Source of the DNA: a virus
DNA: 44,104 nt
Direction: 5' to 3' (one strand)
IMG/VR virus record: IMGVR_UViG_3300042294_004018
Span: 1 to 44,104 of that record
The position numbers were made by a program, and so were the translations under genes. Under the pieces are notes generated by a model. It saw only the letters and a list, made by a program, of their open reading frames with translations, made no database searches and was not told where the DNA came from. Each line of letters starts with the position of its first letter. Within the stretch, counting starts at the first letter, position 1. Positions 3 through 44,104 of this stretch are shown in pieces.

Positions 3-542
3 CCGATTCCCTCTGAGTTGATCATGCCCCTGGGGGGCTTCTATGTGCGCGGCGGCCAGCTCGCCCTGGTGCCGGTGGTGTTGGCCGGGCTGCTGGGCAC
101 GGTGCTCGGCGCCCTTCCCTGGTACGGCATCGGGCGGCTGGTGAACGAGCAGCGGCTGGAGCGCTGGTTGGAGCGCCATGGCCGCTGGATCGGCATCAGC
201 CCCCAGGAACTGCAGCGCAGCCACACCTGGTTCAACCGCCATGGCACCGCCCTGGTCTTCTGGGGGCGGCTGATCCCTGGCATCCGCACCCTGATCTCGG
301 TGCCGGCCGGCATTGAGATGATGCCGTTCGTGCCTTTCCTGATCTGGACCACGGCCGGCAGTCTGATCTGGACCCTGCTGTTAACCCTGGCGGGTTTCGG
401 GCTTGGTGAGGCCTACACCAACGTGGAGGTGTGGCTTGATCCTGTGGCCAAGGTGATCAAGGTGCTGCTGGTGCTGGCCGTACTCGGCTTCGGTGTATGG
501 CTTGGGCTGCGCATCTGGAAGAAGCGGCAGGACAGCCACTGA
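3..542 (+). CDS. DedA-family membrane protein, 5'-truncated by the window edge
   Basis: The frame is open to the window start. The first residues, PIPSELIMPLGGF, match the conserved DedA motif (E..P.IPSE.IMP..G), so the true start lies upstream and 179 residues are visible. Further DedA features are the G.LPWYGIGR region, the arginine-containing FWGRLIPGIRTLISVPAG segment, and hydrophobic helices around residues 105-130 and 145-170, followed by a basic tail. DedA proteins are polytopic inner-membrane proteins linked to lipid scrambling and membrane homeostasis. This is a housekeeping chromosomal family, so it marks the left end as host DNA. It is convergent with the ssb gene on its right, with 132 bases between them. 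Confidence 0.9.
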   Translation, partial: PIPSELIMPLGGFYVRGGQLALVPVVLAGLLGTVLGALPWYGIGRLVNEQRLERWLERHGRWIGISPQELQRSHTWFNRHGTALVFWGRLIPGIRTLISVPAGIEMMPFVPFLIWTTAGSLIWTLLLTLAGFGLGEAYTNVEVWLDPVAKVIKVLLVLAVLGFGVWLGLRIWKKRQDSH

Positions 543-674: not shown

Positions 675-1361
675 TCAGAACGGCACTTCCTCCTCGCTGG
701 GTTCACCGCCGCCGTAGTTGCCGGCGCCGCCAAAACCGCCGCCCCCTTCGGCATCTCGCTTACTGCCCAGCAGCTCAAGTCGATCTACCCGGATTACGGG
801 TTTGGTGCGCTCCTCGCCGCTGCTGCGGTCGGTCCAGCGGTCGAGCTTGAAGGAGCCGATGATGCCCAACAATGAGCCCTTGCGGACATAGTCGGCTGCG
901 ACCTGGGCCTGTTTGCCCCAGATCTCGAGGTTGAACCAGTCGGGTTCATCGTCCCGGCTGCGGCGGTTTACCGCCAGGGTGAGGTTGGCGACCATGCTGC
1001 CGGACTCGAAGTAACGGACTTCGGGGTCGCGGCCGGCCCGGCCTACCAGGGCAACGGAATTGACGCCGGGGCGATCGAGGGGCATGGCGACCCGATGAAA
1101 GCCCTGTAGCTGAAACTCCGGCGGATTGCCTTGTTCAATCCCGAACCTGCCGGTGATAACCACCCAGGAGTCCTGCGTGAGGTTTGCCATCACGTCGGGC
1201 GCACGCTCGCCCCAAGCCGTCACTTGCAGCGGCATCGGGGGGTCTGTTTGTTTGTAGGGGGTGATCTCAACGTTGAAGGATGCCTGGCGTTGGCCACCAG
1301 CGGGAGGGGTAGAGAGTGCCGGCGGCGACGTGATGTAGGCCAGAAGAGTGATCGATTGCAT
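675..1361 (-). CDS. ssb: Two-domain single-stranded DNA-binding protein: Ycf41-like OB domain fused to canonical SSB
   Basis: This 228-residue protein binds ssDNA during replication and recombination. Residues 101-200 are a canonical cyanobacterial SSB OB fold (NSVALVGR, DPEVRYFESG, VANLTLAVNRRSR, DWFNLEIWGKQAQ, KLDRWTDRSSGEE), followed by a Gly-rich tail and the acidic tip PSEEEVPF used to recruit partners. A normal SSB would begin at the Met before NSV. Here that codon is GTC, and the frame continues upstream for 100 residues that form a second OB-like domain (QASFNVEI, DPPMPLQVTAWGERAPDV, WVVITGRF) resembling Ycf41-type proteins. Typical bacterial SSBs are shorter and have one OB domain. 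It is the last gene of the leftward recombination operon, 39 bases after the previous stop. Bases 799-925 (residues about 146-188) recur exactly at the right end of the window. The C-terminal part may be host-derived. Confidence 0.93.
   Translation of the reverse strand: MQSITLLAYITSPPALSTPPAGGQRQASFNVEITPYKQTDPPMPLQVTAWGERAPDVMANLTQDSWVVITGRFGIEQGNPPEFQLQGFHRVAMPLDRPGVNSVALVGRAGRDPEVRYFESGSMVANLTLAVNRRSRDDEPDWFNLEIWGKQAQVAADYVRKGSLLGIIGSFKLDRWTDRSSGEERTKPVIRVDRLELLGSKRDAEGGGGFGGAGNYGGGEPSEEEVPF
799..925. repeat. Exact 127-bp direct repeat, left copy (inside ssb)
   Basis: Every base from 799 to 925 matches 43978-44104 in the same orientation. Identity stops abruptly at base 798 versus 43977 (g versus c); beyond that point the two ssb genes are only related. 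On the other side the second copy runs into the window end, so the true length of identity is at least 127. See the finding on circular or integrated topology. Confidence 0.97.
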
Positions 1362-1400: not shown

Positions 1401-2204
1401 TCAATCCAGGCCAGGGATTGGGGCCTCGGCGGCAGGTGTGGCGGCAGGGCCCGACCGGCGGACCGGGGCAGGCGCGGACCGGCGGCCAGCTGCAGGGGCG
1501 GGTGCGGGTGCTGGCTGGGGGTCGGCGGTGGTGGCCGGGGCGGGCTGTTCCGGGCCGCTGGTGGGATCCGCTTCAGGCTTTGGATTGCAGCGCTTAACGG
1601 TCTGAGAGCTAACGCCCCGCCTGACGATCTCGGCCAGCGCCTCAAGCGTTACATCGCTCAGGTCGCTGGTGTTGCCCTGGGTTAATTCGAGCACAAAAGC
1701 AGTGATCCCGGCACTGGTCAGACCGGAACGGCGGCAGGCGTCGGCGGCGGATTGGATCAGGTCTGCGGCGGGCGGTGCTGCGGCAGCGGCTGGTGCTGGT
1801 GCTGCAGGGGCGGGAGCCTGTAGAGGGAGCACCTTGTACGGCAAGCGCTTGCCACGCGAGGCCGTGAGCATGACCGTCAGCGGCCCGTCTATATGCGACA
1901 GATGGGACAGCCGGATTCCGCCCACTTGCTGGCCGCCGTACATGGCCCCGGGTTCCCTGAAAATGGTGATTCCTCGTCCGACGTAGTGCGAAGAATCGGG
2001 GCCCCAAGCCTCTGCCAAGACTCGGCGCATGGACTTGCAGGGTCGCCAAGGTCTGCCGTTATCACCGTCAAAGTGGATCGCCACGGGCTGCTCTGATTTG
2101 AGAGCAACGTCTACCTTCGTAACCGTGATGGTGCGCGGGCCAACAATCAAATCATCGGCATTCATTTGGTCGGACTTTGGCGCCAGTGTTGCCGTAATGT
2201 CCAT
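1401..2204 (-). CDS. Conserved phage protein of recombination operon, unknown function
   Basis: 267 residues. The N-terminal 128 residues form a compact, Trp- and Gly-rich domain (NADDLIVGPRTITVTKVD, WRPCKSMRRVLAEAWG, YVGRGITIFREP, GGIRLSHLSHID). It is familiar from other siphophage hypothetical proteins (N-terminus of the type MD.T..LAPKSDQ.) usually coded next to exonuclease genes. Then come two Ala/Pro low-complexity linkers flanking a short helical module (residues about 148-205). The start overlaps the exonuclease stop by one base (TGATG), and ssb follows. Context suggests a role in homologous recombination or annealing, perhaps as the exonuclease partner, but no RecT, Beta or Erf motif is visible and the function is unassigned. 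Confidence 0.85.
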   Translation of the reverse strand: MDITATLAPKSDQMNADDLIVGPRTITVTKVDVALKSEQPVAIHFDGDNGRPWRPCKSMRRVLAEAWGPDSSHYVGRGITIFREPGAMYGGQQVGGIRLSHLSHIDGPLTVMLTASRGKRLPYKVLPLQAPAPAAPAPAAAAAPPAADLIQSAADACRRSGLTSAGITAFVLELTQGNTSDLSDVTLEALAEIVRRGVSSQTVKRCNPKPEADPTSGPEQPAPATTADPQPAPAPAPAAGRRSAPAPVRRSGPAATPAAEAPIPGLD

Positions 2205-2902
2205 CAGAAAATCTCCTGCTCAGGTTGGATAGGTTCGGTGGCCGGGAAAATGGCGGCTTTCGTGGTGTAAAGCTCCATCAGCATCCTTAGCTCGGCTTCA
2301 GCGGCCTGTGCTGCAGTGATCAGCTGGGCGATCACCACATCGTCACGCTCGCACCGGCGAACAAACAGCGGCAGGCCAGGGGCGTAACTGATGTAGTCAC
2401 ACCAGGCGCGGCCAGTGACAGCAAGGCCGGTCTGGACCTGCGGCACATACTCAGCTGGCACCTCATCACTGAGCAGCGAGCGGAGGTGGTGCTTCTGCCG
2501 GGGGCTCTTGATCTCAATCAGGCCTTGATCACCCACTAGCCCGTCGGGGCTGTAGCCAATCACGGTGCCGTCGAAATCAGCGGTGACGAATCCGCACTCC
2601 TGCACCGGTGCTCGGTGCTCGGCATAGATGTCACGGGCCAACGGTTCCAGCAAGTGCCCTCGGGCCATGTCGTCGCCGTAGAAACTGGCCTCGGTCTCAC
2701 CGGTGATCCGCTCGGCCAGCAGCTGCAGCAGCTGGCTGCGGCTGGTGTCGTTGTTGGCAGGTTTGCCGGTGCCGGTGATCAGCCTGCTGATCGTGCTGGC
2801 GGTGATCACGCCCCGGCGCAGCGCGTGCCATTCGTCGCTGCCTTGCTCGATGTTGCGGTGGTAGATGGGATCCGGGTGGCGGGGGTAGTCGGCGAGTTTC
2901 AT
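2204..2902 (-). CDS. YqaJ-type viral recombinase exonuclease (PD-(D/E)XK)
   Basis: 232 residues from the Met at 2902, which overlaps the upstream stop as ATGA; a longer in-frame start at 2941 is less likely. The family is a lambda-exonuclease-like 5'-3' dsDNA exonuclease that makes ssDNA for annealing. Visible motifs are Q20-GSDEW with HALRRGVITAS at the N-terminus, GHLLEPLAR with E86, D120 in GYSPDG, the LIEIKSP strand with E130 and K132 (the E-x-K catalytic pair), and YVPQVQTGLAVTG. The length is normal for the family. It belongs with the following gene and ssb in a phage recombination module. Confidence 0.92.
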   Translation of the reverse strand: MKLADYPRHPDPIYHRNIEQGSDEWHALRRGVITASTISRLITGTGKPANNDTSRSQLLQLLAERITGETEASFYGDDMARGHLLEPLARDIYAEHRAPVQECGFVTADFDGTVIGYSPDGLVGDQGLIEIKSPRQKHHLRSLLSDEVPAEYVPQVQTGLAVTGRAWCDYISYAPGLPLFVRRCERDDVVIAQLITAAQAAEAELRMLMELYTTKAAIFPATEPIQPEQEIF

Positions 2903-3237
2903 CGCACCACCGTCGGAGCCACAGCACTTCCCAAGGGGCATCGTGCGCGGCCCTGCTCAACCCCTACCGTGTAGGCCAGGGCAAAGGCAATCAGGGCCAG
3001 GACCGCTATCAGCTTGTAATGCGTAGGCTGGCCCAGGGCTCGGCGCTCACTAGCTGGAAGCTGCCGATCAGCGATGTTGCCCAGGCTAAGAGCTGCGACT
3101 CTTAGCGCATCAATTCGCTGGGCCTTGGCCATGGCCATCCAGGATGCACGAAGGCCCCCCAGGTGATACATCGTCGCGTCAAGGCGCTTGATGTCCAGGA
3201 ACTCAGCCAGTGACACACGATCAGATAGTCGATTCAT
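2899..3237 (-). CDS. Small single-pass membrane protein, unknown
   Basis: 112 residues. The N-terminal part is basic and helical (LAEFLDIKRLDATMYHLGGL). One clear transmembrane segment lies at about residues 74-93, followed by a short tail with one Cys. Both gene ends overlap the neighbours by ATGA, so it is translationally coupled between the 3234 gene and the exonuclease. No family recognised. Confidence 0.8.
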   Translation of the reverse strand: MNRLSDRVSLAEFLDIKRLDATMYHLGGLRASWMAMAKAQRIDALRVAALSLGNIADRQLPASERRALGQPTHYKLIAVLALIAFALAYTVGVEQGRARCPLGSAVAPTVVR

Positions 3238-4054: not shown

Positions 4055-4113
4055 TGACAATCTGTGAACCGTCACACCCCTAAGGCCACGTGGCGTTATC
4101 TACCGATTACATT
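4055..4113 (+). promoter_or_regulatory. 59-bp repeated promoter/operator element, copy A
   Basis: This 59-bp stretch aligns without gaps to 5582-5640 (49 of 59 bases identical), with an exact 22-base block at its 3' end (4092-4113). It lies 46 bases before the ATG at 4160; copy B lies 49 bases before an ATG. TACATT at 4108-4113 is a plausible -10 hexamer. TGTGA-ACCG-TCACA is a perfect palindrome inside copy A but only half-preserved in copy B. No good -35 is seen, so an activator-dependent promoter is likely. Confidence 0.7.
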
Positions 4114-4159
4114 CTGTTCGCCGGGGCGGAGATCCCCGGACCCAATCGCACCCCGCAGC

Positions 4160-4333
4160 ATGGACTACGAACTGCCTCACGCACACGCCTCCAACGCAGC
4201 TGATGAGCTGAAGGCCCTCCAGGCCACCGACCTTTGGCGAGAGCTACCAGCCGATGCGCAGATTGCACTCTCCAAAGCGCACGGCATCTTGATCGGACTG
4301 ACCGGCGCCATGGAGGCCGCCAGCCTGGTCTGA
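4160..4333 (+). CDS. Small unknown protein, first gene of cassette A
   Basis: 57 residues from the ATG at 4160, placed just downstream of the 59-bp element. Mostly helical (NAADELKALQATDLWREL, DAQIALSKAHGILIGL) with an acidic N-terminus; no Cys and no clear membrane segment. No Shine-Dalgarno is visible; the ATG is preceded by CCGCAGC, and the first genes of both cassettes have such a CAGC-type leader. Function unknown. Confidence 0.65.
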   Translation: MDYELPHAHASNAADELKALQATDLWRELPADAQIALSKAHGILIGLTGAMEAASLV

Positions 4334-4385
4334 TCGCTCCCCCACCATCGCCAGCCGGCTATAGGCGTTAAACCGAGCCGAACCG

Positions 4386-4413
4386 CCCCCAGTAGTCCGG
4401 GGGCAACCAACCA
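4386..4413 (+). other. Intergenic hairpin followed by CAACCAACC
   Basis: CCCCC (4386-4390) pairs with GGGGG (4399-4403) over an 8-base loop, followed by CAACCAACC. The loop has no T-run after it, so it is not an ordinary terminator. The trailing motif resembles the one after the covarying hairpins at 4719 and 5927, so this may be a third, divergent member of that leader family. Confidence 0.45.
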
Positions 4414-4432
4414 CCTCCGCCCTTAGCCAGCC

Positions 4433-4702
4433 ATGAAATTCAAAACCACGATCACTGGACGCACGCTTGCCGAGTCAGTTGAAGCCGTTGTAACCGCAGC
4501 AGATGAATTTGAAGCCCGCATCAAAGCGCTCCGCCGCTGGAGCAAAAACCGCCGTGTCTGCATGTTTCAGCCATACAACGCCCTGCCTGGGCAAGAGCCC
4601 TCCGGCCAGGCTGGTTATGGATATGAACGAGCAGCAGCATCCTCAGGATGCGACTACGCAGCGGCAACCAGCCTAATTCGGGTCTACATGGAGCCTTGCT
4701 AG
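4433..4702 (+). CDS. Unknown 89-residue protein
   Basis: MKFKTTITGRTLAESVEAVV at the N-terminus suggests a beta strand and helix, then a basic helix (FEARIKALRRWSKNRR), then a Tyr/Ser/Cys-containing tail. The ATG at 4433 is preceded by AGCCAGCC, as at 5690. It is the second gene of cassette A, in front of the covarying hairpin. No homology recognised. Confidence 0.65.
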   Translation: MKFKTTITGRTLAESVEAVVTAADEFEARIKALRRWSKNRRVCMFQPYNALPGQEPSGQAGYGYERAAASSGCDYAAATSLIRVYMEPC

Positions 4703-4709
4703 GGCGTAC

Positions 4710-4752
4710 TAACCCCCCAGCCCGCCGGGGCTTCCCGGCAACCAATCCATCC
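4710..4752 (+). promoter_or_regulatory. 43-bp repeated leader with hairpin, copy A
   Basis: Matches 5918-5960 at 40 of 43 positions. AGCCC (4719-4723) pairs with GGGCT (4728-4732) around GCCG. In copy B the closing pair changes from C-G to T-A, so pairing is preserved. It ends 13 bases before the ATG at 4766. An alternative stem, GCCGGG/CCCGGC (4724-4729 with 4734-4739), also exists in copy A only. Confidence 0.65.
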
Positions 4753-4765
4753 CCCCCTCAATCCC

Positions 4766-5347
4766 ATGACCAAATCTCAAACCCTTCACCCCACTGCAGC
4801 GGCGGCACGCATCGCCCCCCTGCTGCTGGCCCTGGCCGGCCTGGCCATTGCAGCCGGGGGCCTCTGGCTCTGGCGCCATCGCCGGCAGATCGGCGCGGCG
4901 CTGATCACAGCAGCCGCTGCCGCCTACTCAGCCGGGGCATGGGGCCGGCAGCAGATCGAAGCCCTGGCCGCTGACTCGGCGCGGCGGCTACCCAGCCAAC
5001 CAGTTGCGGCGGTGGCGCCGATCACGGCCACCATCGCAGCGGCCTGGGGGCTGGTGGATCGGGGCACCATGACCCGAGCAGAGCGGGCCCGCCGTGCCCG
5101 GCTGGCGGACATTGCCAGCGCCTACGACTTGGAGCTGCGCGATCTGCTGCGACCCATAAAGAATTGTTACTCCGCTGCAGCCTTTGCAATTGAACCAATC
5201 GAACCAGGCGAAGAACTGCTGTCACCTATCAGGTATCGCCGTTCCGTTTCGGCCAGCGCAATCGAACCCATGCGGTTTCAGGCCGTGGTTCGCGTAGATA
5301 AAGGGAGGTTTTTGGCCATGGCTGGAGGAAGGCGCCTCAATGCCTGA
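4766..5347 (+). CDS. Membrane-anchored unknown protein
   Basis: 193 residues. A hydrophobic segment at about residues 16-36 (ending GGLWLWRHRR) and a second Ala-rich one at about 42-58 suggest a hairpin membrane anchor. A third Ala-rich stretch follows, then an arginine-rich helix (TRAERARRARLADIASAY) and a soluble C-terminal part. Its end overlaps the next start within ATGCCTGA (5340-5347). No family recognised; a host-membrane effector is one possibility. Confidence 0.7.
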   Translation: MTKSQTLHPTAAAARIAPLLLALAGLAIAAGGLWLWRHRRQIGAALITAAAAAYSAGAWGRQQIEALAADSARRLPSQPVAAVAPITATIAAAWGLVDRGTMTRAERARRARLADIASAYDLELRDLLRPIKNCYSAAAFAIEPIEPGEELLSPIRYRRSVSASAIEPMRFQAVVRVDKGRFLAMAGGRRLNA

Positions 5348-5354
5348 CCCCAAC
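5339..5354 (+). repeat. 16-bp repeated stop/start junction, copy A
   Basis: AATGCCTGACCCCAAC is identical at 6445-6460. In both places it carries the ATG of one gene and, in another frame, the TGA of the previous gene, giving products that start MPDPN. It is the third element shared by the two cassettes. Confidence 0.8.
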
Positions 5355-5594
5355 ACCCCAGAGCCCAATCCTGCAGCCTGGCGCCAAAACCTCTACCGAC
5401 GCCGCAATGAAGGCATGGCACCAGGTGGCCGGCGAATCCCGTGCGAAAACTGCCCTCGATCGCACACCGGCACCCATGGCCTGCTCTGCTGGGAGTGTGC
5501 CCGCAAAACCCCAAAGGGCCGGGCAACCGTTGCCCGGCTGGTGTGGGAGCATCGCCAGCGGAAAAAGGCAAAGGGCAAAGGTGACAATCCGTAA
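5340..5594 (+). CDS. Small zinc-ribbon-like protein
   Basis: 84 residues. Two CxxC-type pairs (C35/C38 and C50/C53, CENC...CWEC) look like a structural zinc site. The C-terminus is strongly basic (WEHRQRKKAKGKGDNP), which fits nucleic-acid or ribosome binding. The start overlaps the upstream stop, in a 16-base junction (5339-5354) that is exactly repeated at 6445-6460. Last gene of cassette A. Confidence 0.75.
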   Translation: MPDPNTPEPNPAAWRQNLYRRRNEGMAPGGRRIPCENCPRSHTGTHGLLCWECARKTPKGRATVARLVWEHRQRKKAKGKGDNP

Positions 5595-5640
5595 AGCGTC
5601 ACAACCTTAGGGCGCTGGGGCGTTATCTACCGATTACATT
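5582..5640 (+). promoter_or_regulatory. 59-bp repeated promoter/operator element, copy B
   Basis: Ungapped match to 4055-4113; the 22 bases 5619-5640 are identical to 4092-4113, with the -10-like TACATT at 5635-5640. It begins inside the last codons of the 5340 gene (GTGACAATCCG) and ends 49 bases before the ATG at 5690. Confidence 0.7.
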
Positions 5641-5689
5641 ATGGGGACAGGCAAGGGGGAACCCGAGCCGCCACCCCTCACCGCCAGCC

Positions 5690-5920
5690 ATGACCGCTTC
5701 TTGCCCTTGCTTTGTCGTTTTTGGTGCTCGCCCAGTCTTTGGCCAAGACGGCACTTATCAACCATGGGAAATATTTGGTATTGGCACTACTGAATCTGAA
5801 ACAAAGACAATTGGTTTTCAAGTTTTAACGGCAGGCTGCAAACTTGCTTTGCGCAAAACAGGCGAAGGCTTTCCCGAAGCATTGGATTGCATGATTGACT
5901 ATTCCAATTTTGCCGCCTAA
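5690..5920 (+). CDS. Unknown 76-residue protein, first gene of cassette B
   Basis: The N-terminus MTASCPCFVVFGARPVFGQD is followed by Thr/Gly-rich beta-like sequence with four Cys in total. It is lower in GC than its neighbours and not similar to the first gene of cassette A although it follows the same promoter element. The TAA stop forms the first three bases of the 43-bp hairpin leader. Function unknown. Confidence 0.65.
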   Translation: MTASCPCFVVFGARPVFGQDGTYQPWEIFGIGTTESETKTIGFQVLTAGCKLALRKTGEGFPEALDCMIDYSNFAA

Positions 5921-5960
5921 CCCCCCAGCCTGCCGAGGCTTCCCGGCAACTAATCCATCC
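5918..5960 (+). promoter_or_regulatory. 43-bp repeated leader with hairpin, copy B
   Basis: AGCCT (5927-5931) pairs with AGGCT (5936-5940) around GCCG, the covarying counterpart of 4719-4732. The element ends 15 bases before the ATG at 5976. It is not followed by a T-run. Confidence 0.65.
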
Positions 5961-10021: not shown

Positions 10022-10183
10022 ATGTCCCGCGCAACCCTGACCTTTCGACCGTCTGAAGACCAGCGCCACTGGCTAGACGCCAAGGCGAAGGCCCTGGGCA
10101 TCCCAAAGACGACCCTGATGCAGCTGCTGGTTATTGACGCGATGAAGGCTGAGGCCGCCACCAGCCATAAGGGCAAGCCTTAA
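10022..10183 (+). CDS. Ribbon-helix-helix-like DNA-binding protein
   Basis: 53 residues: SRATLTFRPSEDQRHWLDAK, then KALGIPKTTLMQLLVIDAMK. The pattern is a short beta strand with alternating residues, a helix, a Gly turn, and a second helix beginning with Pro-Lys-Thr-Thr, as expected of Arc/CopG/MetJ-type repressors that bind DNA as dimers. The stop overlaps the primase start (TAATG), so it is cotranslated with the replication gene and may autoregulate it through the 11-bp repeats just upstream. The assignment rests on pattern only. Confidence 0.6.
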   Translation: MSRATLTFRPSEDQRHWLDAKAKALGIPKTTLMQLLVIDAMKAEAATSHKGKP

Positions 10184-12333
10184 TGGGCGACAAACAAAAA
10201 TTGATCCCCAGCAGTAGGCGCAACCCTTGCCCTGTTTGCGGTCGAACGAAGGACGGCGACTGCCGTGTGTCATCCGACGGACTGGAGGTGATCTGCCATC
10301 ACCCCAAAGACCACCGGCCCGGTGAGGTGGTCACAGGGGTAGATGAGGGGGCTTGGGCATTCACCGCCAATACCAGCGACGGCAGGGCAGGCCATTACAC
10401 CCTCGACAAACCACGCGACGGGGCCCAGCGCCTCCCCCGGCGATCGATCCAACACAGGCCCACCGAACCACCGCGGACACCGCCGGCGCCTTTGCCTGAC
10501 CGGCCCCCGGCCCTGGCCAGGATGACCCCCAGGGAGCCTGCTGGCAGCCCATACCGCTATGGGCCCACCCAGTTGGTTAAACGGGTGGCGCTTTCTGACG
10601 GTGACAAGGCGTTCTACGGATTTCATTTGCTGGATGACAAATGGGAGAAGGGCGCCGGCCCTGACCCGTGGCCCGTTTTCAACCTGGCCGACACGATCGG
10701 CGCCGATGGCTGGATTCTCGAACCCGAGGGCGAAAAATGCGCGGAACTCTGCGCGGCAGAGGGGGTGGTCAGCATTTCCCAGCCAGGCCATGCCCACACC
10801 ATTGAGCAGATCGTGCCCCGCTACCAAGCGCTCAAGGCTGGTGGCTGCCCAGGGCTGATCTACCTCCAAGACCATGACGGCCCTGACCGGCCGGTGCACC
10901 AGCAGGAGGGGCGACGGCGCGCCGAGAACGCAGCCGAAGCCGCAGCGCAGGCAGGGCTGCCCATGATCGTGATCCCGGCGAATGACCTATGGCCTGGCCT
11001 CCCTGATGGCGGCTCCATTGACGATGCCCCAGACGGTCCCGAGAGCGCGATCCTGGACATCATCGAAGCGGCCACCGAGGCCTACTGGACGCTGGTTGAG
11101 GTTCAGCAACAGGAGCAGGAGCCAGGGCCCCAACGATCAGAGCCCCCACGCGATCAGCAGATTCAATTACTACTGGACACCCTCCTCGACCTGAAACTTG
11201 AGCCGGCCGACCAATGGGCACAAGAGCAGGCGATCAGGGCCGAGCTATTCGCCCTGGGGGTCAGGGGCGATGCCATAGACGATCGGATGATGGTGGCCCT
11301 GGCTGCAAGGTGGGGCCTACCCCTGCAACAGGGCCACAGCGGGCAACGCCGGGGGCGATCGATCACCGATCCCCTCGACTCACCTGCAGAGGATCTGCTG
11401 CCAGGCTTTTTGTTGTGGCGCCGGGACCATGTGCTTTTCGGTGCGGGGGGCGCCGGCAAGACCATGGCCGCAGCTGCAATGGCCGCAGCCGTCATCAAAG
11501 GCATGCCGTTTCTTGACCAGGAAATTCCCGTTGATCCCGGCCGGCGCGGCAAGGTCCTATGGATCGGCACGGACGCCGGCGAGGGGGCCAGGGCCATGGT
11601 TCTCGAATACCTCGAAGACCTTGGGGTGGCCGACGATCCCGAGATCATCAAAAGCCTATCGATCTGGACCGCTGAGGCCGGCGATCACATGCCGCCCTGG
11701 TGCTGCTCCCCCAGGGGCTTGCTTGAGTTGCGCGATGAACTGGAGCTTGGCGGTTACAGCCTGGTGATTATCGACAGCCTTAAAGCGGTCTTGGAATTGG
11801 CCGGCATTAATTTCGGAATTGGTCCCGTTGGCACGTTGATGAGGTTCATGCAGGCCCTAGTAGGCCGGCATTGCTCCCTGGTGTGGCTTCATCACCCTGC
11901 AGGCGGCAAGGCCGCTGGCAAAGGCGTACAGGCCGCTGCAGGCTCCCAGAACATCAACCAGATCCCCAGCGGTGTCCACCAGATAACCCGGCACACAGGA
12001 GAGCGAGGCAGCTGCAACGAGTGGTCGGTTTTGAAGCTTCGCGGCAGCCAGTCCCGCGATTTCAAGTACCGCCTTGGGCCCGAGGGGTTTGAGGTTAGCG
12101 ACGGAGAGATCACCGGGAACGCTCGCTGCGCCCTCCTGGATCGCCTGGAGCTGCGCGAGGCCAGCGGTAGGCCCACCGACACCCGGATGTTGCTTGATGA
12201 CCTCCAGGGGGTCTCTGAGGCCACGGTGCGCAACAACCTGACCTGGCTGCGAAAGCAAGGGCTGATCAAAAAAGCGGGGAAGGCCTGGAAGCTGACAACC
12301 GTTGGCCGCAATGCTCCTCGATATGCCTTGTAA
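10183..12333 (+). CDS. Primase/helicase: zinc finger, TOPRIM-like region, RepA-type AAA ATPase, winged helix
   Basis: 716 residues. An N-terminal zinc-binding element has C16-x2-C19 and C27 with C38-H-H. A Toprim-like region (EPEGEKCAE at 180-188, then LIYLQDHDGPD) suggests primase activity. A RepA/DnaB-like RecA fold carries the Walker A GAGGAGKT (420-427), the Walker B LVIID (527-531) and a following WLHHPAGGKAAGKG element. The C-terminal 60 residues look like a winged helix (SEATVRNNLTWLRKQGLI). It should unwind and prime at the phage origin. The start overlaps the RHH gene; a 366-base repeat-rich non-coding stretch follows directly and is a candidate origin. Confidence 0.88.
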   Translation: MGDKQKLIPSSRRNPCPVCGRTKDGDCRVSSDGLEVICHHPKDHRPGEVVTGVDEGAWAFTANTSDGRAGHYTLDKPRDGAQRLPRRSIQHRPTEPPRTPPAPLPDRPPALARMTPREPAGSPYRYGPTQLVKRVALSDGDKAFYGFHLLDDKWEKGAGPDPWPVFNLADTIGADGWILEPEGEKCAELCAAEGVVSISQPGHAHTIEQIVPRYQALKAGGCPGLIYLQDHDGPDRPVHQQEGRRRAENAAEAAAQAGLPMIVIPANDLWPGLPDGGSIDDAPDGPESAILDIIEAATEAYWTLVEVQQQEQEPGPQRSEPPRDQQIQLLLDTLLDLKLEPADQWAQEQAIRAELFALGVRGDAIDDRMMVALAARWGLPLQQGHSGQRRGRSITDPLDSPAEDLLPGFLLWRRDHVLFGAGGAGKTMAAAAMAAAVIKGMPFLDQEIPVDPGRRGKVLWIGTDAGEGARAMVLEYLEDLGVADDPEIIKSLSIWTAEAGDHMPPWCCSPRGLLELRDELELGGYSLVIIDSLKAVLELAGINFGIGPVGTLMRFMQALVGRHCSLVWLHHPAGGKAAGKGVQAAAGSQNINQIPSGVHQITRHTGERGSCNEWSVLKLRGSQSRDFKYRLGPEGFEVSDGEITGNARCALLDRLELREASGRPTDTRMLLDDLQGVSEATVRNNLTWLRKQGLIKKAGKAWKLTTVGRNAPRYAL

Positions 12334-13808: not shown

Positions 13809-13846
13809 TGCGCGGCTTTGTCATAGCAAGGGATCTGAGCAAATCT

Positions 13847-13934
13847 CAGTCATACCAAGGGTTTTGGGGGTATTGCCTCAAACCTCAGTCATACCAAGGG
13901 GTTTGGTGAGAACCCAGTCATACCAAGGGGTTTG
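13847..13934. repeat. Three 20-bp direct repeats upstream of terminase
   Basis: Units start at 13847, 13886 and 13915 (starts 39 and 29 bases apart). The first has GGGTTTTG where the others have GGGGTTTG. They are candidate terminase-binding (R-like) sites. Confidence 0.8.
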
Positions 13935-14012
13935 GGCTTGGGTCCTCCCGAACGACACATACCGAGGGAACCACGAAGCCGCGATTTATCTGTTGATAAC
14001 GCTTCGCAATAA

Positions 14013-43833: not shown

Positions 43834-44104
43834 CAGAATGGGATGTCATCGTCTTCTGGTTGGCCGCCAAGGGGTGCCGCGTTCCATGGCTGAGCGGACT
43901 CACCACCACGCACCGGGCCCCCACTCTCAGCCTCTCGCCGCCCCCCCAGCAGCTCCAGACGGTCAACCGTGATCACCGGTTTGGTGCGCTCCTCGCCGCT
44001 GCTGCGGTCGGTCCAGCGGTCGAGCTTGAAGGAGCCGATGATGCCCAACAATGAGCCCTTGCGGACATAGTCGGCTGCGACCTGGGCCTGTTTGCCCCAG
44101 ATCT
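43833..44104 (-). CDS. ssb: Second ssb gene, 5' part beyond the window
   Basis: 90 codons visible, ending in the acidic tip PEDDDIPF. Residues encoded by 43978-44104 are identical to the left ssb; the C-terminal linker differs (RGGESAQPWNAAPLGG here, Gly-rich in the left copy). Its stop overlaps the next gene, so this copy belongs to the phage leftward operon. If the genome is circular, its 5' part is the 5' part of the left ssb (926-1361). Confidence 0.93.
   Translation of the reverse strand, partial: IWGKQAQVAADYVRKGSLLGIIGSFKLDRWTDRSSGEERTKPVITVDRLELLGGRREAESGGPVRGGESAQPWNAAPLGGQPEDDDIPF
43978..44104. repeat. Exact 127-bp direct repeat, right copy at window end
   Basis: Identical in order and orientation to 799-925 and terminated by the window edge. 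Its length equals the common maximum assembly k-mer. Confidence 0.97.

Follow-up and report, generated by a model that had tools for sequence, protein, structure and literature searches.

A two-domain ssb gene in a siphophage contig

The window analyzed here is an entire IMG/VR record, a contig of 44,104 bases that is classed as linear. On its minus strand, an ORF of 228 codons (1361..675), open throughout, encodes two SSB-type OB domains in a single chain. The N-terminal part (residues 1-98; 1068..1361, minus strand) was assigned by profile, tree, and structure as a Ycf41-type OB domain with a short linker, and about residues 99-200 (765..1067, minus strand) were assigned by Pfam/NCBIfam and DNA comparison as a core of the cyanobacterial SSB type. 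The core matches Pfam SSB (PF00436) over residues 100-198 (E 2.9e-32, 111.3 bits versus a cut-off of 26) and the NCBIfam cyanobacterial SSB model PRK07459 over residues 100-207 (E 3.3e-63). PHROG 44 covers the SSB half only, and the Pfam match of the N-terminal half is a weak one to OB (PF01336; residues 45-85, E 8e-4, below its cut-off). The preliminary description, which had proposed a phage SSB with two OB domains, is borne out by the Pfam SSB match, by the OB-fold model, and by 19 further viral contigs that are alike. It had also stated that the natural start Met is replaced by GTC, and this was mistaken: host ssb genes start with ATG-GGC-GTC-AAT (MGVN) and the phage gene reads CCC-GGC-GTC-AAT (PGVN) at this point, i.e., the Met codon has become CCC (Pro) and the GTC is the ancestral host Val3.

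The contig carries a siphophage gene set that includes terminase, portal, protease, major head protein, tape measure, tail genes, dCTP deaminase, thymidylate kinase, and a YqaJ-type exonuclease. The latter, a nuclease of the YqaJ/lambda-exonuclease family (2204..2941, minus strand; Pfam, NCBIfam, and PHROG), is the first of three recombination-cassette genes. It is followed by a gene for a 267-aa protein of unknown function, phrog_11517 (1401..2204, minus strand; PHROG), located directly upstream of ssb in the same operon. The order exonuclease, phrog_11517, ssb also occurs in most relatives with enough flanking sequence. Residues 1-149 of the 267-aa protein match the family and its C-terminal half is Pro/Ala-rich; it is a candidate single-strand annealing or DNA-binding protein, the role of an annealase-type partner being only a guess.

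Several other features of the genome were recorded. The gene at 10183-12333 (plus strand) encodes 716 aa with an AAA_25 (RepA/DnaB-like ATPase) domain and may specify the replicative primase-helicase of the phage. Two pairs of direct repeats, 4055-4116/5582-5643 (82%) and 4709-4752/5917-5960 (93%), flank small plus-strand ORFs, and these pairs at 4055-5960 are possibly duplicated regulatory regions or small-gene cassettes. In addition, a tandem-like repeat of the GTCATACCAAGGGGTTTGG type is present in three copies at 13820-13936, upstream of the terminase gene. One relative with the fusion (G009) encodes a serine recombinase/integrase (PF00239, E 1.4e-27; C1:37228-37650, minus strand), and some members may therefore be temperate.

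The left contig end and the 3' part of the phage ssb

At the ssb gene, the contig is chimeric. Positions 799-925 within the ORF (minus strand) are identical to 43978-44104, the last 127 bases of the contig, with the identity stopping at exactly 127 nt, and it is in this recurring stretch that host ssb and phage ssb meet in the assembly. The ssb 3' end as read (675..798, minus strand), ~40 codons long with the tail ...GEPSEEEVPF, matches the ssb tail of a Synechococcaceae MAG (L016) and runs into DedA; judging from this match, bases 675-798 are most likely host chromosome and not phage DNA. Similarity to the MAG spans ssb and its neighboring DedA gene, at 98% over 1-559 and 95% over 560-1067 of the window. 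Most of the SSB core is 95-98% identical in DNA to the ssb of this MAG, and its bases 765-798 fall within the host-like branch. A Pfam-assigned fragment of a host DedA/VTT gene, the usual neighbor of ssb in picocyanobacterial chromosomes, lies at 18..542 (plus strand). DedA follows ssb in most of 80 host ssb loci, and none was found beside the two-domain ssb in the 19 phage relatives.

The true 3' part of the phage ssb is found at the other end of the contig (43833..44104, minus strand), where a second ssb 3' end encodes the end of the SSB core and a Ycf41-like tail, ...SAQPWNAAPLGGQPEDDDIPF; the 5' part lies at 926-1361. Sequence homologous to the right end of the window, from 43.8 kb downwards, comes after the two-domain ssb in most relatives whose flank is long enough. 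Because the right end of the contig repeats 799-925 and 1-798 match the host, the protein that belongs to the phage is about 237 aa long (1361..926 joined to 44104..43836), ending in ...WNAAPLGGQPEDDDIPF with a Ycf41-like tip. Both versions have an acidic C-terminal tip that ends in PF: EEEVPF in the ORF as read, and DDDIPF in the right-end phage copy.

The repeat, the match to the MAG, and the layout of the relatives are all accounted for by a circular phage genome of about 43.2 kb joined to a host branch at the shared 127-mer. A k-mer of 127 is a usual maximum for SPAdes-type assemblers, and one relative (G014) has an exact 127-nt overlap between its own two ends, as expected if this kind of assembler produced a circular map. 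In the core, the part upstream of base 925 could be partly host sequence too, with the 127-mer being the only stretch proven common to both branches.

We also considered that the left end might be a real junction, formed by a single crossover in an identical stretch of at least 127 nt that placed the phage genome in the host ssb, in which case the ORF would be a genuine hybrid. Such a crossover would yield the same layout (host 3' end, shared stretch, phage, phage 3' end, shared stretch), the phage and host ssb cores have near-identical DNA, and the phage itself encodes an exonuclease. Yet the repeat has exactly the k-mer length, as does the terminal overlap of G014, no tyrosine or serine integrase was found in the 44,104-nt contig, and a DedA neighbor is seen in 0 of 19 relatives. 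We regard the real junction as unlikely: with a repeat of exactly k-mer length and no integrase found in the contig, we favor an assembly chimera over true single-crossover recombination. About 800 bases of host chromosome are present at the left end of this virus record, a warning that phage genes nearly identical to those of the host can give rise to chimeric contig ends.

Lineage and distribution of the Ycf41-type domain

Residues 1-96 form an OB fold, and profile, fold, and tree all point to Ycf41 as its closest relative. Structure prediction of this half recovered an OB topology: the AlphaFold model (pLDDT 86.6) consists of strands and one helix in OB order, and VIA-align gave its best score to 3koj_B, the Ycf41 OB domain (Z 15.2; 86 residues at rmsd 1.4), with the next SSB structures less than 1 Z unit behind and thus counted as tied. 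A PDB profile search with the N-domain also returned 3koj, deposited as Ycf41, at the top (E 6.4e-7); the N-profile additionally matches mycobacterial SSBs (E 3e-4), and the match to 1se8 reaches only E 1.1, on its second OB, versus 6e-7 for 3koj. Profile-profile comparison using hhalign gave 98.1% (E 1.4e-13) for Ycf41 and 89.4% (E 2e-6) for host SSB. In a tree of 36 OB domains, the N-domains and Ycf41 are split from all SSBs (100/99) and the N-domains form one group (89/85); this tree carries a long-branch warning, and the grouping of N-domains with Ycf41 rests on about 75-100 columns. Among named phages, no convincing relative of the N-domain was found, the best match being to ordinary actinophage SSBs (E 0.08). 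Collectively, the hhalign scores, the profile and structure matches to 3koj, and the tree support the earlier assignment of residues 1-96 as a Ycf41-type domain that is closer to Ycf41 than to SSB.

With the aim of finding the same fusion in other viruses, we carried out a protein search, which yielded 13 viral contigs, and an N-domain profile search, which added 6 more. All 19 combine the N-domain with an SSB core, so that the two-domain architecture occurs in at least 20 IMG/VR contigs including the window, always as one gene, and is not due to chance. Given that an SSB core stands between the OB domain and the tip in all 20 contigs, the N-terminal half represents a Ycf41-type domain and not a Ycf41 protein. 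A scan of the viral contigs for a stand-alone Ycf41 gene, a weak one based on two short peptide patterns only, found none.

The hosts present a different picture. Their ssb is single-domain in all 80 loci analyzed and starts with MGVNS, and the fusion is absent from these loci and from about 400 further cyanobacterial genomes with a separate Ycf41. When genomes of the host family were searched with the N-profile, 267 of 300 gave one weak match each (E 9e-12 to 1e-3), among which there was no phage-like copy; those inspected are stand-alone Ycf41 genes, the sole type of match at E <= 0.001. One apparent host fusion in Synechococcus ATX 2A4 (L094), matching residues 34-228, was rejected as an ordinary single-domain ssb with a chance match upstream. 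The preliminary description's main proposal, a cyanophage protein in which a Ycf41-type OB domain is joined to a cyanobacterial SSB, is thus upheld by profiles, tree, and fold, and the search for a host chromosome with the same two-domain ssb found none. The fusion is a genuine, recurrent phage SSB architecture of freshwater picocyanobacterial viruses, without counterpart in the hosts examined. The literature searched, mostly without subscription papers, contained nothing relevant on a Ycf41-SSB fusion or on Ycf41 function.

Ycf41 itself is a nearly universal, little-studied OB protein of cyanobacteria and algal plastids, and a search of the class with a Ycf41 profile detected the gene in 115 of 116 genomes. 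In the Ycf41 proteins inspected, the OB domain is followed by a linker that is Pro/Ala-rich or of low complexity and then by a DDIPF-type tip. Such an SSB-like acidic tip after a low-complexity linker was observed in L104, L106, L107, L136, L138, L140-L142, L144, L145, and L151-L155, as well as in L160, L162-L164, L166-L175, and L178-L180. With such a tip, Ycf41 has the appearance of a second SSB family, found in nearly all of the cyanobacteria examined (115/116 genomes).

Histories of the two halves, proposed function, and comparison with known systems

The two halves differ in history, as can be seen from the contrast in their identities. Between phages, mean DNA identity is 65% for the N-domains and 83% for the SSB cores, and in one pair (L006 and L127) the core DNA is 98.8% identical and the N-domain DNA only 57%. 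The core DNA of the window is 96.5% identical to the host gene of the Synechococcaceae MAG and 85.7% to that of the phage with the nearest N-domain. Tails are of at least two kinds, host-SSB-like in most relatives versus Ycf41-like in the window phage, L003, and L008, and none of 1000 shuffles was as good as the phage tail when compared with Ycf41 tails. In every close pair examined, dN/dS was below 1 for both halves (median 0.32 for N and 0.19 for the core), showing that both are under purifying selection and kept functional.

These comparisons fit a scenario in which phages have exchanged the SSB half with one another and, probably, with the host ssb too, the gene possibly having passed from host to phage or the other way. 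The earlier suggestion that a Ycf41-like gene was joined to a captured host ssb is plausible, given the 96.5% DNA identity of the core to the host gene. In such a scheme, homologous recombination, both between phages and with the ssb of the host, would replace the SSB half and tip, and the Ycf41 half would be phage-specific.

As for function, its position after the exonuclease and the phrog_11517 protein suggests that the likely job of the phage SSB is to coat ssDNA for phage recombination and replication. The protein consists of an N-terminal OB of the Ycf41 lineage, a C-terminal OB of the host-SSB lineage, and a flexible acidic tip, and it may coat phage ssDNA during recombination/replication. 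The SSB half would drive oligomerization, the Ycf41 half would add a DNA- or protein-contact surface, and the tip would dock replication/repair proteins, as in the two-OB SSBs of Thermus/Deinococcus. Its binding of ssDNA, its oligomeric state, and its site size, including the different ssDNA footprint put forward in the preliminary description, are predictions. Anabaena has two kinds of ssDNA-binding SSB, namely Alr0088, which has an OB fold only, and All4779, with an OB fold, a proline-rich spacer, and an acidic tail, which has been proposed as the major SSB (PMC3976300). Since Ycf41 proteins have the architecture described for All4779, they are probably of the same family; if so, the phage protein joins both host ssDNA-binding lineages.

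The N-domain might instead be an adaptor without DNA binding, through which replication proteins of the phage or host are recruited or which mixes with host Ycf41/SSB oligomers, titrating them. SSB acidic tips and OB domains mediate protein contacts, and mixed oligomers are conceivable with an SSB core near-identical to that of the host; the PF01336 match and the predicted SSB-like fold favor nucleic acid binding, however, and we consider an adaptor role improbable. Overall, there is good reason to believe that the two ssDNA-binding lineages of the host are combined in this phage SSB, which has a layout like that of the Thermus/Deinococcus two-OB SSBs and serves an exonuclease-linked recombination/replication module. 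A more specific version may be put forward only tentatively: a self-sufficient SSB from both lineages that converged on the Thermus/Deinococcus layout, the SSB half being refreshed from the host chromosome by homologous recombination and so staying matched to host partners, and the Ycf41 half being phage-specific. In any case, the halves of this phage replication gene have separate histories, one half being nearly identical to its host counterpart, and, as a Ycf41 domain operates here in the same chain as SSB, the fusion provides a natural test of the role of Ycf41. New in this basic DNA-processing protein is a two-OB SSB domain architecture drawn from two different families.

The two-OB layout itself is known. 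Single-chain SSBs with two OB domains, which are homodimers, have been described for Thermus/Deinococcus (PMC2964679), and a Foldseek search with the full-length model, whose confidence is modest (pTM 0.56), returned these SSBs (2fxq, 2cwa, and 1se8) first, over 201-221 columns with E values as low as 7.8e-12; the way in which the two domains are placed relative to each other does not superpose (TM 0.4-0.5, rmsd about 9). They resemble the phage protein in having two SSB-type OB folds per chain. Unlike them, the phage halves come from two separate cyanobacterial families and are joined by a short linker, and the N-terminal OB is nearer to Ycf41 than to the DrSSB/TaqSSB domains. That it is a duplicated and diverged phage SSB OB domain merely resembling Ycf41, as with the two OBs of Thermus/Deinococcus, is very unlikely, for although N-domains start with MN(S/R)LTLLA like SSBs, fit SSB structures almost as well as Ycf41, and match mycobacterial SSBs by profile at E 3e-4, Ycf41 scores far above host SSB in profile comparison, is the sole match at E <= 0.001 in the host genomes inspected, groups with the N-domains (100/99), and shares its tail type with the phage copy.

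Relative to Ycf41 (3koj), the phage N-domain is alike in fold and profile, and the Ycf41 tail resembles that of this phage; Ycf41 stands alone in the hosts examined, with its own linker and a (D)DDIPF tip, whereas the phage version is fused to an SSB core. The C-terminal half resembles cyanobacterial SSB (PRK07459, PF00436), with up to 96.5% DNA identity, but the host protein is single-domain and starts with MGVNS. Finally, the SSBs of cyanophages S-LBS1 and PSS2 share the SSB-type OB of the fusion, and in S-LBS1 the ssb gene adjoins one for an annealing protein, but both have a single OB domain (147 and 117 aa, respectively) and are about 38-47% identical to the core.
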